Part shown: piece by piece, positions 26,579 through 30,990 of the stretch
Position numbering within the stretch: position 1 is the first letter of the stretch
How the letters are laid out: each line of letters opens with the position of its first letter
NCBI RefSeq assembly: GCF_014204325.1
Contig: NZ_JACHKT010000010.1
Location: 1-64,000 of the forward strand
DNA: 64,000 bases
Origin: Arcicella rosea
GTDB lineage: Bacteria > Bacteroidota > Bacteroidia > Cytophagales > Spirosomataceae
Direction: 5' to 3'
The notes under the pieces: generated by a model
What the model was told of the DNA's origin: nothing
Seen by the model: the letters and a program-made list of their open reading frames with translations, nothing else
The model's database searches: none
Program-made: the position numbers and the translations under genes

Positions 26579-27436
26579 ATGGAAATTACTGAATTACAAA
26601 AAGTTGCTTCGCAAGTACGTCGTGACATCGTACGTCAAGTACATGCTTGTCAGTCTGGTCACCCAGGCGGTTCATTAGGCTGTGCTGATTTATTGGTTGG
26701 TCTTTACTTCGACCAAATGACTTTAAAATCAGACGAAGCTGGAAACAAAATCTTTGATATGGACGGTATCGGCGAAGACCTTTTCTTCTTATCAAATGGA
26801 CATATTTCTCCAGTTTTCTATTCAGTATTAGCTCGTGCTGGCTACTTCCCAGCGGCTGAATTAGCAACTTTCCGTAAATTAAATTCTCGTCTTCAAGGTC
26901 ACCCAACTACGCATGAACACCTTGAAGGTATTCGTATCGCTTCTGGTTCTTTAGGACAAGGAATGTCGGTAGCCATTGGTGCAGCTCAAGCGAAAAAATT
27001 GAACAAAGACAATTCTTTGGTATTTGTTTTAATGGGTGATGGCGAGCAAAACGAAGGTCAAGTTTGGGAAGCGGCAATGTATGCTCCACACCACAAAGTT
27101 GATAACTTGGTAGCTGTTATCGACTACAACGGTCAGCAAATCGACGGGCCAACGGACAAGGTAATGAACAACCGTGATTTAGGAGCTAAATATGCAGCTT
27201 TCGGTTGGAATGTAATGAAAATGAATGGTAACGATATGGCAGATGTAGTGAAAGTATTAGCAGAAGCTCGTGCTTTTTCTGGAAACGGACAGCCAACAAT
27301 GATTTTGATGACCACTGAAATGGGTGCTGGTGTTGATTTCATGATGGGTTCACACAAATGGCATGGCGTAGCTCCAAACGACGAGCAATTAGCCGCAGCT
27401 TTAGCTCAGTTACCTGAAACTTTGGGAGACTATTGA
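26579..27436 (+). CDS. transketolase, N-terminal (TPP-binding) half
   Basis: First of two genes that together encode transketolase, which exchanges two-carbon ketol units in the pentose phosphate pathway. The 285-residue protein carries the TPP-binding motif GDGEQNEGQVWEAAMYAPHH, the SGHPGGS entry motif and GQGMSVAIGAAQA. The split form is common in this phylum, and the two halves are normally adjacent. Here the partner starts 2.5 kb downstream at 29928, with three foreign-looking genes between, and the first 300 bp after this gene carry no coding sequence. Confidence 0.95.
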   Translation: MEITELQKVASQVRRDIVRQVHACQSGHPGGSLGCADLLVGLYFDQMTLKSDEAGNKIFDMDGIGEDLFFLSNGHISPVFYSVLARAGYFPAAELATFRKLNSRLQGHPTTHEHLEGIRIASGSLGQGMSVAIGAAQAKKLNKDNSLVFVLMGDGEQNEGQVWEAAMYAPHHKVDNLVAVIDYNGQQIDGPTDKVMNNRDLGAKYAAFGWNVMKMNGNDMADVVKVLAEARAFSGNGQPTMILMTTEMGAGVDFMMGSHKWHGVAPNDEQLAAALAQLPETLGDY

Positions 27437-27441
27437 TTAGA

Positions 27442-27744
27442 TATGAATTATGAGGTATGAATTATGAAAAGTAAAAATTTGTTAATTTGATAAATTCGTT
27501 GCGATAAACTTTAACATATTCATCAGGTTTAGATTTTTTCATAAATTAGGAATAGCACAAAAAGGTGACTAAACAAAATACTGTCTTGGACTTTTAAATG
27601 AACCTGATTAATAATCAGAAATAAAAAATGATTCGATTTATAATGATTCAATATCACTTTTGAAAATTGTTAAATCAATCATTATCACTCAAAAAAGAAG
27701 AAAGAAGGGTTAAAAATTTCATAATTCATAACTAATATCTCATA
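27442..27744. repeat. inverted pair of heptamer arrays flanking a non-coding spacer
   Basis: Left array 27442-27469: TATGAAT, TATGAGG, TATGAAT, TATGAAA. Right array 27717-27744 holds the inverse-oriented units (on the - strand TATGAGA, TATTAGT, TATGAAT, TATGAAA). The arrays border about 250 bp without an ORF, between the transketolase N-half and the Uma2 gene. The inside contains a further short inverted pair (ATCAGGTT / AACCTGAT). I find no TAnnTTTG promoter. It could mark the left edge of an inserted module. Confidence 0.55.
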
Positions 27745-27753
27745 GCTAAATAA

Positions 27754-28338
27754 ATGATTACCAGCATAGAACAACTCGATTTAACCAAACAATATACTTA
27801 TGCCGATTATTTAAAATGGCAAATAGTTGAACGTTTGGAATTGATAAAAGGATATATTCGTCAAATGTCTGCTCCTTCAAGAGAGCATCAAGCTATCTCT
27901 CGAAATTTGGGTAGGCAAATTGACGCATACTTTTATGCTCGTAAATGTGAATGGTACTCTGCTCCTTTTGATGTACGGATTCCACGGTTTGATAAAAAAA
28001 TTGAAAAGGAAGTCATCACAGTGGTTCAGCCAGATATTTGTGTGATTTGTGATGAATTGAAATTGGATAAAAGAGGCTGTATTGGTGCTCCAGACTTAAT
28101 TGTTGAAATTTTATCGCCCGGCAATAGTAAAAAAGAAATGCGAGAAAAATTTGAAGTCTATGAGGAAGCTGGTGTAAAAGAGTACTGGATTGTAAACACG
28201 CTTGATAAAAACGTGTTGATTTACACACTCAATGAAGCAGGCAAATACATCGGTCAGCGTCCTTATGTAGAAGATGAAATCATGAACTCATTTACATTCC
28301 CTGAATTAAGTATCGACTTAAACAAAGTATTCATTTGA
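27754..28338 (+). CDS. Uma2-family (DUF820) putative endonuclease
   Basis: A 194-residue protein of the Uma2 family, which has a PD-(D/E)XK nuclease fold. Family landmarks are visible: QPDICVI (Asp94), APDLIVEILSP (Asp114, Glu118) followed by a Lys-rich helix (NSKKEMREKFEVYEEAG), and VKEYWIVN. Many family members are numerous stand-alone genes of unknown role. Here it overlaps the next gene by 4 bp (TTGA), so the two are translationally coupled and very likely work together. A DNA-cleaving partner for the ATPase/TOPRIM pair is a reasonable but untested inference. Confidence 0.85.
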   Translation: MITSIEQLDLTKQYTYADYLKWQIVERLELIKGYIRQMSAPSREHQAISRNLGRQIDAYFYARKCEWYSAPFDVRIPRFDKKIEKEVITVVQPDICVICDELKLDKRGCIGAPDLIVEILSPGNSKKEMREKFEVYEEAGVKEYWIVNTLDKNVLIYTLNEAGKYIGQRPYVEDEIMNSFTFPELSIDLNKVFI

Positions 28339-29339
28339 AAATCAAGAAATTACATATCAAAAATTTTAAATCTATTGCAGATTTAGAAATCATTGAACCA
28401 AATCCATTTACGGTCTTTGTTGGGCCAAATGGGTCTGGGAAAAGTAATATTTTTGAGGCTTTGGAGTTTCTGAATTTATGTGTAAAAAGACTGAGAAGAA
28501 ATATTGATGGCTTATTTGGAGGGGAAAATAGTTTTGTACATCACAAAGCAACAGGAGATACCAACATTTTCATTGATGGTGATAATCATGAGTCTATCCA
28601 CACAGTTAGAATGAGAAGTGATAAAGACCATTATTATGACTATATTATTCTAACAAATCGATTGACAGATAATGAAGACCAAATAATGGATATAGCAAAA
28701 TCAAGTTTTTATCCTCAATTATCTGATAATTTTTCTCGTTTTTTTATAAATTCTCCTAAAGGGAATAAGCTTAACTTTCAGGATGGAAATCGATTAAATT
28801 TGGTTACAAATAATCTTGAAAAGGTTCTAAAAAGAATTTTAAACGAAGAAGGTAAAAAAGAGGAAATACTTGATTGGTTGCGATTGTTTATTCCTGAGTT
28901 TGATGATGTGTTTATAGAATCTTCTGAATTGAGTGGAACTGATACTATAGTAATCAAGGAAAAATATTCTGACAAATATTTTACTAAAGAACTTATCTCA
29001 GACGGAACATACAATATTCTCGCTCTTTTAACTGCCGTTTTTCAGTCTGATGAACCGCAATTTTTGTGTATTGAAGAACCTGAAAATGGGCTTACTCCTG
29101 ATGTCATTAAAGAGATGGTTACTTTTTTCAGAAATGCTTGTGAAGAAAAAGGGCATTATATATGGCTAAATACACATTCGCAATCATTAGTATCTCAGCT
29201 TACTCCTGATGAAATAATCACTGTAAATAAAATCAAGGGTGAAACAAAAATAAAGCAGTTCAAAGGAGAAGATTTTCATGGATTAAGTATGGATGAAGCA
29301 TGGCTAACTAATACCCTTGGAGGTGGGTTGCCATGGTAA
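28335..29339 (+). CDS. AAA/ABC-type ATPase (RecF/AAA15-like)
   Basis: A cytosolic ATPase of the SMC/RecF/OLD class, 334 residues. Walker A GPNGSGKS lies at 30-37, a degenerate ABC signature ISDGT at 221-225, Walker B with catalytic acid in CIEEPENGL (Glu247/Glu248), and the switch His281 in NTHSQSLVS. The central region (about 60-200) has no long coiled coil. It starts at a TTG that overlaps the Uma2 stop codon and ends overlapping the next start by 7 bp. ATPases of this kind paired with small TOPRIM-like proteins occur in phage-defence modules such as AbiL, RloA/RloB and OLD/Gabija-type systems (from memory). Function here is inferred. Confidence 0.88.
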   Translation: MKIKKLHIKNFKSIADLEIIEPNPFTVFVGPNGSGKSNIFEALEFLNLCVKRLRRNIDGLFGGENSFVHHKATGDTNIFIDGDNHESIHTVRMRSDKDHYYDYIILTNRLTDNEDQIMDIAKSSFYPQLSDNFSRFFINSPKGNKLNFQDGNRLNLVTNNLEKVLKRILNEEGKKEEILDWLRLFIPEFDDVFIESSELSGTDTIVIKEKYSDKYFTKELISDGTYNILALLTAVFQSDEPQFLCIEEPENGLTPDVIKEMVTFFRNACEEKGHYIWLNTHSQSLVSQLTPDEIITVNKIKGETKIKQFKGEDFHGLSMDEAWLTNTLGGGLPW

Positions 29340-29917
29340 ATATTGGTTTTATTTGTGAAGGTTATACTGAGCTTTTTATTTTAGAATCTCAAGCTTTTAA
29401 GAATATTCTAAATCAACTCCAACTTAATTCTGTTGGAATAATTAATGTTGAAGGAAATGGTAATTTATTACCCCATAATCTTAAAAGTCATAGAGAAAAT
29501 CTTTTCACCAAAGGGGCTTCAGTTATTTTTATTTTTACAGACCTTGATCAAGACCAATGTATTACCAAAACCCGATTGAGGATTACAGAATCTGAAAATC
29601 AAATTATTATCGTTGCTGTTAAGCAGATTGAGTCTTGGTTTCTATCAGACTATACTTCAATGAATACGATTTTTCAAGGTGATTACGCTTTTGAATTTCC
29701 CGAAAACGAAGATGTCCCATTTGAAACTATTCGAACCAAATATTTTGAAAAGTTTAGAAGAGGACTTGTAGGCAGAAATGAAAAGAAAAGATTAGCTCAA
29801 AAAATGCTTAACTCAGGTTTCTCAATTCAAAATGCAGCAAATCATCCTAATTGCCCGAGTGCCAATTATTTTTTAACAAAATTAAAGCAATGTGCCTCGA
29901 CTGAAACTGTCGAGTAA
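29333..29917 (+). CDS. TOPRIM-like protein, DUF4276/RloB-type partner of the ATPase
   Basis: 194 residues. The N-terminal strand and acidic motif FICEGYTE (Glu9, Glu13), then FIFTDLDQD (Asp70, Asp72, Asp74) and IESWFLSD (Glu100, Asp106) follow the TOPRIM layout of a Glu plus a DxD. They resemble DUF4276/RloB proteins, where ExW...D is characteristic. This fold in OLD-type systems cleaves nucleic acid with two metals. The ATG overlaps the ATPase stop. The stop lies only 10 bp before the transketolase C-half start, so the last module gene and tkt are now on one message. Enzyme activity is inferred from fold only. Confidence 0.75.
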   Translation: MVNIGFICEGYTELFILESQAFKNILNQLQLNSVGIINVEGNGNLLPHNLKSHRENLFTKGASVIFIFTDLDQDQCITKTRLRITESENQIIIVAVKQIESWFLSDYTSMNTIFQGDYAFEFPENEDVPFETIRTKYFEKFRRGLVGRNEKKRLAQKMLNSGFSIQNAANHPNCPSANYFLTKLKQCASTETVE

Positions 29918-29927
29918 AAATAGAAAA

Positions 29928-30887
29928 ATGAAAAAATATACTTTCACAGAAAAAAAAGATACTCGTTCTGGCTTCGGTGCTGGAATGCAAGTGTTGGGAC
30001 AAACCAACCCAAATGTTGTAGCTCTTTGTGCTGACCTTATCGGCTCATTGAAATTGGATGCTTTTATCAAAGAAAATCCAGAACGTTTTTTCCAAACGGG
30101 TATTGCTGAAGCAAATATGATTTGTATCGCTGCTGGTTTGACAATCGGTGGAAAAATTCCTTTTGCTACTACTTTTGCTAACTTCGGTACTGGACGTGTC
30201 TATGACCAAATCCGTCAGTCAGTAGCGTATTCAAACAAAAATGTTAAAATCGCTTGTTCACATGCTGGTTTAACGTTGGGTGAAGATGGTGCTACTCACC
30301 AAATCTTAGAAGATTTAGGAATGATGAAAATGCTTCCAGGCATGACGGTCATCAACCCTTGTGACTATAACCAAACAAAAGCTGCTACTATCGCTGTAGC
30401 TGAACACGAAGGTCCAGTTTATTTACGTTTCGGTCGTCCAGTTGTGCCAATTTTCACCGCTCCAGATCAAGAATTTATCATTGGTAAAGCTTGGATGGTG
30501 AACGAAGGTGCAGACGTAAGTATCTTCGCAACAGGACATTTGGTTTGGGAAGCTATTTTAGCAGGTGAAATTTTGGCTGAAAAAGGTATCGACGCTGAAA
30601 TTATCAATATCCACACGATTAAACCTTTAGACGAAGAAGCTGTCTTAGCTTCAGTTCGCAAAACTGGTTGTGCAGTTTCTGCCGAAGAACACCAAATTGC
30701 TGGTGGTTTAGGAGATTCTATCGCACAAGTATTAATTAAAAATCATCTTGCTCCATTAGAATACGTTGGCGTTGAAGATTCATTCGGTGAATCTGGTACT
30801 CCTGCTCAATTAATGGAAAAATATGGTTTGAATGCAGCAGCAATCGTTGAGAAAGCTTTGAAAGCGATAGCTCGTAAACAAGCGTAA
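29928..30887 (+). CDS. transketolase, C-terminal half
   Basis: Second transketolase gene, giving the pyrimidine-binding and C-terminal domains. From the ATG at 29928 it is 319 residues beginning MKKYTFTEKKDTRSGFG. FFQTGIAEANMICIAAGL contains the catalytic Glu that activates TPP, and SHAGLTLGEDGATHQ, LRFGRP and the EEHQIAGGLGDS stretch are all normal. The open frame extends 12 codons upstream into the TOPRIM gene, but that is unlikely to be used. It ends at a long hairpin terminator (30911). The intact N-half lies 2.5 kb upstream, so the enzyme should still assemble. Confidence 0.94.
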   Translation: MKKYTFTEKKDTRSGFGAGMQVLGQTNPNVVALCADLIGSLKLDAFIKENPERFFQTGIAEANMICIAAGLTIGGKIPFATTFANFGTGRVYDQIRQSVAYSNKNVKIACSHAGLTLGEDGATHQILEDLGMMKMLPGMTVINPCDYNQTKAATIAVAEHEGPVYLRFGRPVVPIFTAPDQEFIIGKAWMVNEGADVSIFATGHLVWEAILAGEILAEKGIDAEIINIHTIKPLDEEAVLASVRKTGCAVSAEEHQIAGGLGDSIAQVLIKNHLAPLEYVGVEDSFGESGTPAQLMEKYGLNAAAIVEKALKAIARKQA

Positions 30888-30910: not shown

Positions 30911-30990
30911 AGGCAAAAGGCGAACAAGTATCAGTAATTAGAGTAAATAAACACTCTGATTGCTATTCTTTTCGGCTTTTGCCTTTTTTA
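30911..30990 (+). terminator. long terminator of the transketolase operon
   Basis: Outer arms AGGCAAAAGGCGAA (30911-30924) and its near complement (30971-30984, one mismatch) are followed by T6. The inside also folds (AGTAATTAGAGT against ACTCTGATTGCT with G-U pairs), so the whole 75 nt can form one extended hairpin. Confidence 0.75.

Follow-up and report, generated by a model that had tools for sequence, protein, structure and literature searches.

An ATPase–TOPRIM gene pair seated between the transketolase halves of Spirosomataceae, with a hypervariable block in its ATPase

Gene row between the transketolase halves

The window considered here, which is the whole analysed stretch of 64,000 nucleotides on contig C10 of the 5.3-Mb genome of Arcicella rosea, carries a compact gene row in which the two halves of transketolase (tktN and tktC, jointly tkt) are separated by genes for a Uma2 family putative nuclease, an ATPase and a small TOPRIM protein, all on the forward strand (Table 1; coordinates rechecked). 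Adjacent genes overlap by 4 bp (Uma2 and ATPase) and 7 bp (ATPase and TOPRIM), and the TOPRIM stop precedes the ATG of tktC by 10 bp. The coordinates, overlaps, 10-bp gap and domains given by an initial annotation, made from the sequence of the window, all hold in gene calls and Pfam searches; its statement that three genes fill the tkt gap is correct as to the genes, but the gap also contains a non-coding stretch of 317 bp before Uma2.

Uma2 (PF05685) scores 114 bits against a gathering cut-off of 27, and the ATPase has an ABC fold, with the catalytic residues of the module conserved. The TOPRIM protein finds weak matches in Pfam (DUF4276, 0.0023; OLD-like_TOPRIM, 0.02), both below the family cut-offs, and a comparison of its profile with the sequences of solved structures yielded nothing useful; the topology predicted for it is nonetheless present, namely the OLD/GajA type of TOPRIM with its E and DxD residues, the fold being supported by a modest margin. 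In PADLOC, HEC-01A (PDLC04176) is the best of 127 families for the ATPase (4.5e-95) and HEC-01B (PDLC04191) the best of 15 for the TOPRIM protein (8.2e-54), so that by sequence match the pair is closest to HEC-01, a catalogued defence candidate. The idea of a defence-type pair inside a core operon is borne out, whereas the kinship with AbiL or RloA/RloB put forward at the time is not: AbiLi reaches 2e-24 for the ATPase with no AbiLii among the 15 matches of the small protein, and the RloB Pfam domain is absent from the window protein at E ≤ 0.1, with 3 of 50 relatives matching it.

Table 1. Features of the transketolase locus in the window
Feature	Position	Strand	Matches
tktN, N half of transketolase, flanking the seat on the left	26579..27436	+	Transketolase_N 9e-48
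Non-coding leader, 317 bp, 23% GC (guanine plus cytosine), 33-nt imperfect inverted repeats (85%) at both ends	27437..27753	+	
Uma2 family putative nuclease, optional member	27754..28338	+	Uma2 Pfam 5e-33; PADLOC PDC-S03
ABC/SMC-head ATPase, TTG start	28335..29339	+	AAA_21 2e-24; PADLOC HEC-01A
ATPase codons 1–45, conserved left edge with Walker A, silent sites unusually alike	28335..28469	+	
ATPase codons 46–150, hypervariable block, proposed sensor	28470..28784	+	
ATPase codons 151–334, ISDGT signature, Walker B EEPENG, H-loop, C-terminal GGGLPW	28785..29336	+	
Small TOPRIM protein, DUF4276-like, proposed nuclease effector	29333..29917	+	PADLOC HEC-01B
TOPRIM codons 161–194, conserved, bounding the larger unlike stretch on the right	29813..29914	+	
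tktC, C half of transketolase, flanking the seat on the right	29928..30887	+	Transket_pyr 3e-39
Inverted repeat (14+14 nt) 3' of tktC, possible operon terminator (predicted)	30911..30984	+	

The transketolase seat in the family and beyond

The seat was surveyed in 200 genomes of the window's family (Spirosomataceae; 36 genera), in which tktN was detected in 196 and tktC-like proteins in all 200. The TOPRIM protein is present in 67 of these genomes, from 16 of the 36 genera, and the 68 modules found there all adjoin tktN or tktC, 62 of them being flanked by both, with gene order and strand constant across all module loci and the 7-bp ATPase/TOPRIM overlap retained in 67 of 68 rows (the alignment of the exception, G031, ends early). 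Because the ATPase–TOPRIM pair occupies the identical place in 67 of 200 genomes, the gene row at tkt is not due to chance; tkt is the standing seat of the pair in the family rather than the target of a one-off insertion, and the single insertion event originally supposed, together with any simple story of a recent insertion, was dropped after the survey. Uma2 occurs in 11 of the 68 modules and in one genome (G144) stands alone between the tkt halves; it is an optional accessory, present at the seat in certain lineages, so the three-gene unit regarded as new is a recurring variant and not the core arrangement.

Relatives with an empty site, as the initial annotation expected, exist within the window's own genus, where the module is found in four of eight genomes and is absent from the rest. 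Gaps between tktN and tktC were measured in 69 of 133 match-free genomes (among the matches listed) and also in the second tkt pair of the window's genome; all but one of these 70 module-free gaps are empty (1–187 bp), the exception being that of G144. In a tktN tree with 85 rows, whose 20 empty loci (including the plasmid-like second copy) are those nearest the window and represent part of all empty genomes, module presence requires 11 changes, at least seven of which are forced. Such recurrent presence and absence at one site, together with a third-position GC content of the ATPase below that of tkt in all 62 cases, would suit a site-specific mobile element inserting between tktN and tktC. 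This explanation is nevertheless very unlikely: no integrase or transposase lies among the window's three genes, the TOPRIM protein has no match in 50,697 phage records, and the ATPase is found at seven IMG/VR loci, all weak, and in 11 plasmid records, all of Escherichia coli. Furthermore, on an ATPase tree built from conserved columns by a quick method (61 rows), the tkt label needs two changes as against 18.6 in shuffles, which argues that the tkt address is inherited.

Among named loci, the best 80 by similarity comprise 49 at tkt and 31 elsewhere. Nine of the latter have formimidoyltransferase-cyclodeaminase (FtcD) downstream and one lies behind RbfA; for the other 21, neighbours were read at 20 loci, of which three sit behind ileS and a DksA-type gene, two have a diaminopimelate-type decarboxylase on one side and an ABC gene on the other, two sit behind carotenoid genes (one of these before phosphoglucomutase), one is placed between DapB and signal peptidase, and some are behind other core genes, while at least four (L200, L225, L226, L238) have no such core-gene seat. 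Pfam agrees with the names of all ten neighbours submitted; ileS, the carotenoid genes and other names were assigned by eye. At class level, 17 of 395 genomes match, with five strong matches outside the family, none at tkt within the stretches read, and nine further genomes with weak matches that lay outside the context reading; in the order of G299, matches occur in 2 of 36 genomes, the second being G598 (L255). The notion of tkt as a universal site was rejected, since the class-level survey shows other positions. A homologous pair of E. coli, whose ATPase is 31–32% identical to that of the window over its whole length, is flanked by the BREX genes pglX and pglZ in all 26 carrier genomes (of 5,426); of three annotated stretches, two show the 7-bp overlap and the third has a later annotated start of the second gene.

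These addresses bear on the suggestion that the module works together with transketolase or the pentose phosphate pathway, or regulates one of them, for instance as a guard of the enzyme. Conservation of the seat over 16 family genera would be in keeping with such a role, as would the coupled translation suggested by the 10 bp before tktC; however, the module is carried by 67 of 200 family genomes only, nine of the 31 non-tkt loci adjoin FtcD and others RbfA, DapB and signal peptidase or phosphoglucomutase, the E. coli pair belongs to BREX, and the hypervariable domain described below is ill-suited to one constant host partner. Partnership with transketolase is thus quite unlikely.

The second tktN–tktC pair of the window's own genome, which is empty, lies on the 204-kb contig C6 (L042, 5161–7059); its proteins are 99% identical to those of the window pair and its DNA 97% and 95%. 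It is probably plasmid-borne, because it adjoins replication-initiator-, ParA- and ParB-like genes (identified by eye), and it may serve as a backup or recombination partner. Further module genomes, e.g., G142 and G190, also possess a second, empty tkt pair (among the matches listed). Two different modules occur in G097 on contigs C103 and C499 (L084 and L085), one at the tktN end and one at the tktC end, which may reflect modules in tandem, a second tkt locus or a mixed bin. An alpha/beta-hydrolase-like frame (by eye) lies between the TOPRIM gene and tktC in G128 (L075, 1518–2581), and the tkt locus of L204, a record titled Flavobacterium sp. SUN052, resembles that of Larkinella, so the title may be wrong.

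Variation within the ATPase and at silent sites

The most variable part of the module was missed in the single-sequence reading, because relatives are needed to see it. Alignment and entropy reveal ATPase residues 1–45 as almost fixed, residues 46–150 as saturated with change and the remainder as less strongly conserved; the block edges at 45 and 150 were set from these data before identities and silent sites were compared in the 55 of 68 modules that are complete in four genes. Mean identity of the block is 15% where tkt identity is below 75% and 20–22% where it exceeds 95%, with a weak trend overall (Spearman 0.43; 1,485 pairs). In the clearest pairs, DNA identity on either side of the block is 90–100%. 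For instance, the DNA of G148 and G163 is 98% identical in the left flank, 31–62% in the block and 89–100% beyond it, and G031 and G050, whose tkt proteins are about 100% identical, differ over a stretch that starts at ATPase codon 45 and ends at TOPRIM codon 157, the DNA being 90% identical before it and 100% after it. Block length ranges from 84 to 189 amino acids, the LFGG and R135 motifs are still recognisable inside it, and the alleles are mosaic, alike blocks being found with unlike TOPRIM genes. In a predicted model, the block comprises the last part of the Walker A helix together with three strands (77–107) and helices up to 131; in Rad50 and SMC proteins, the coiled coils depart from the corresponding side of the head.

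Breakpoints were fitted freely, two per pair and with the left one within columns 20–120, in 32 close pairs that share genomes. The fitted left edge falls at codon 45–47 in 29 of them, and the right edge in ATPase codons 89–239 (22 pairs), TOPRIM codons 145–162 (nine pairs) or TOPRIM codon 6 (one pair). Six of the 22 pairs show a clean small block with DNA 85–97% alike beyond it, and the nine pairs show a clean large block with DNA 93–100% alike beyond. Uma2 has a milder patch at residues 46–90, where G086 and G123 are 47–53% identical inside and 93–100% outside, and a patch at 46–75 between near-identical flanks in G000 and G066.

Silent sites were compared in pairs with a tkt silent identity above 0.5, which share genomes, the counts being descriptive. 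Silent identity exceeds that of tkt in 414 of 428 pairs for ATPase codons 1–45 and in 302 of 420 for TOPRIM codons 161–188, as compared with 22 of 428 for the rest of the ATPase and 28 of 428 for TOPRIM codons 1–160. In distant pairs (tkt 0.3–0.4), edge (0.45) and interior (0.41–0.45) are nearly level; therefore, neither codon bias nor an unvarying nucleotide constraint is by itself sufficient to explain the edges. The silent-site data may be read as gene flow through the edges and old, maintained diversity inside, and they suggest that the block is exchanged by recombination via the conserved edges, like a polymorphic recognition locus.

Alternatively, the variability could stem from rapid mutation or relaxed constraint instead of exchange, given that surface parts of proteins can evolve fast and that the rest of the module also differs in 17 of the 32 close pairs. 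Such an origin is, however, highly improbable in view of the 98% DNA identity of codons neighbouring the divergent block in G148 and G163, the range of block lengths, the persistence of the LFGG and R135 motifs and the occurrence of alike blocks with unlike TOPRIM genes.

Relation to known systems and proposed function

The pair resembles HEC-01 (Hma-embedded candidate) in having two genes with the ATPase first, each of which finds its best match there, and differs from it in being resident in core metabolic operons, in the hypervariable ATPase block and in the optional Uma2. Several HECs, including HEC-06, are reported to be active against viruses in the consulted part of PMC12988326, where HEC-01 is not named. 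OLD and Gabija GajA share the ATPase head and TOPRIM folds, which they combine in one polypeptide, whereas two overlapping genes encode them here; MADS Mad3 reaches 79 bits, below its NCBIfam cut-off of 420. The E. coli BREX-embedded pairs are alike in gene order, in a seamless seat inside a host operon and, in two of three cases, in the 7-bp overlap, but their host operon is itself a defence system and their alleles are mildly variable in mid-protein. TOPRIM-linked OLD ATPases with BREX have been described (PMC12839542, in the portion consulted).

PARIS (AriA/AriB) likewise has its TOPRIM nuclease separate from an OLD-type ABC ATPase and offers a likely mode of action. According to PMC12409363 and PMC11455837, its ATPase hexamer holds the TOPRIM nuclease until a phage protein binds the ATPase, whereupon the freed nuclease forms dimers and cleaves tRNA. 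The present pair differs in location and hypervariability, the ATPase scores 3.2e-27 with AriA, far below HEC-01A, and no AriB match is found for the TOPRIM protein at E ≤ 1 (15 matches); AriA is not among the 50 VIA-align entries listed for the ATPase, which is uninformative on kinship.

On this basis, we consider it probable that the locus is a resident HEC-01-type immune module at a fixed tkt seat, whose sensor is exchanged by recombination. The two-gene module would be co-expressed with tkt from its place in the transketolase operon; by analogy with PARIS, the ATPase may keep the TOPRIM nuclease inactive until a phage protein binds it, which would free the nuclease and stop the cell. ATPase codons 46–150 would be the sensor of the phage protein, and lineages would replace this block, or the whole stretch up to about TOPRIM codon 160, by homologous recombination in the conserved edges and in the tkt genes outside them, which may keep many recognition alleles in circulation at one locus. 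The broader proposition, in which housekeeping arms and gene edges let lineages trade ready-made sensor cassettes and, separately, nuclease cassettes, with their diversity kept by balancing selection, has about an even chance of being right. In type I restriction HsdS domains and fungal mating-type idiomorphs, unlike sequences also occupy one locus between conserved edges, whereas here the unlike part belongs to the genes of an ATPase and its proposed partner nuclease, within a core operon. Genes diversified by diversity-generating retroelements (DGRs) include putative sensors of bacterial conflict systems (PMC10907252, consulted in part); the present locus shows whole-block differences with length changes.

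A toxin–antitoxin (addiction) unit parked in core operons without an immune role is an unlikely alternative reading of the same genes. In G001 (L091) and G118 (L090), which were left out of the TOPRIM set, the TOPRIM gene is broken and the ATPase frame intact (with intact copies elsewhere), as would be expected of a toxin held by its antitoxin; addiction, however, leaves the hypervariable block and the BREX location unexplained.

Several observations weigh against the immune-module interpretation. Among the six modules lacking one tkt flank, four are cut inside the module by contig ends, but G006 (L086, L087) carries an unrelated frame in front of the ATPase on the contig that has the module and tktC, its tktN being on a separate contig with other neighbours, and in G093 (L167) a transposase-like frame (by eye) stands behind the TOPRIM gene, up to the contig end, in place of the expected tktC. 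(G006 also has one extra weak TOPRIM match, 36% over 68 amino acids, located elsewhere.) In 17 of the 32 close pairs, which are not independent, DNA to the right of the block stays at 43–78% and most of the module differs, often as a mosaic. Non-tkt copies in Bacteroidota are likewise hypervariable (L200/L223, 93/35/93%), and the tkt seat is therefore not the cause of hypervariability; another non-tkt pair, L236/L239, is alike throughout (96–97%; block 97%). One pair of E. coli alleles shows a mild gradient of 98/70/86% over residues 1–45/46–170/171–373, so strong hypervariability is not universal. Moreover, the sensor role of the block is argued from variability alone, and a tkt-specific role of the module is possible.

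Defence genes are usually described from islands or mobile elements; this pair keeps a permanent core-operon address across an entire family, and the part proposed as its sensor is unlike as a block, with much of what surrounds it conserved. The locus is ordinary in its protein families, unusual in its address and striking in its variable block. Defence hotspots at core genes have been described in Pseudomonas (PMC10250203, as far as consulted), and no account of the core-operon seat, the hypervariable block or the optional Uma2 was recognised in the literature examined, in which subscription journals are thinly covered. Natural alleles that differ mostly in one domain make phage recognition of the OLD/PARIS type testable by allele comparison, and empty and filled pairs inside housekeeping operons offer a possible route to finding defence genes.

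The nearest named relatives are an unclassified Cytophagales metagenome-assembled genome, Flectobacillus and Arcicella. A regular-expression scan, which does not exclude a promoter, found none of the Bacteroidetes type in the leader. This A+T-rich leader upstream of Uma2 may be a small miniature element; 30 bp recur on contig C15 of the window's own genome, and a 288-bp leader in G066 ends alike.
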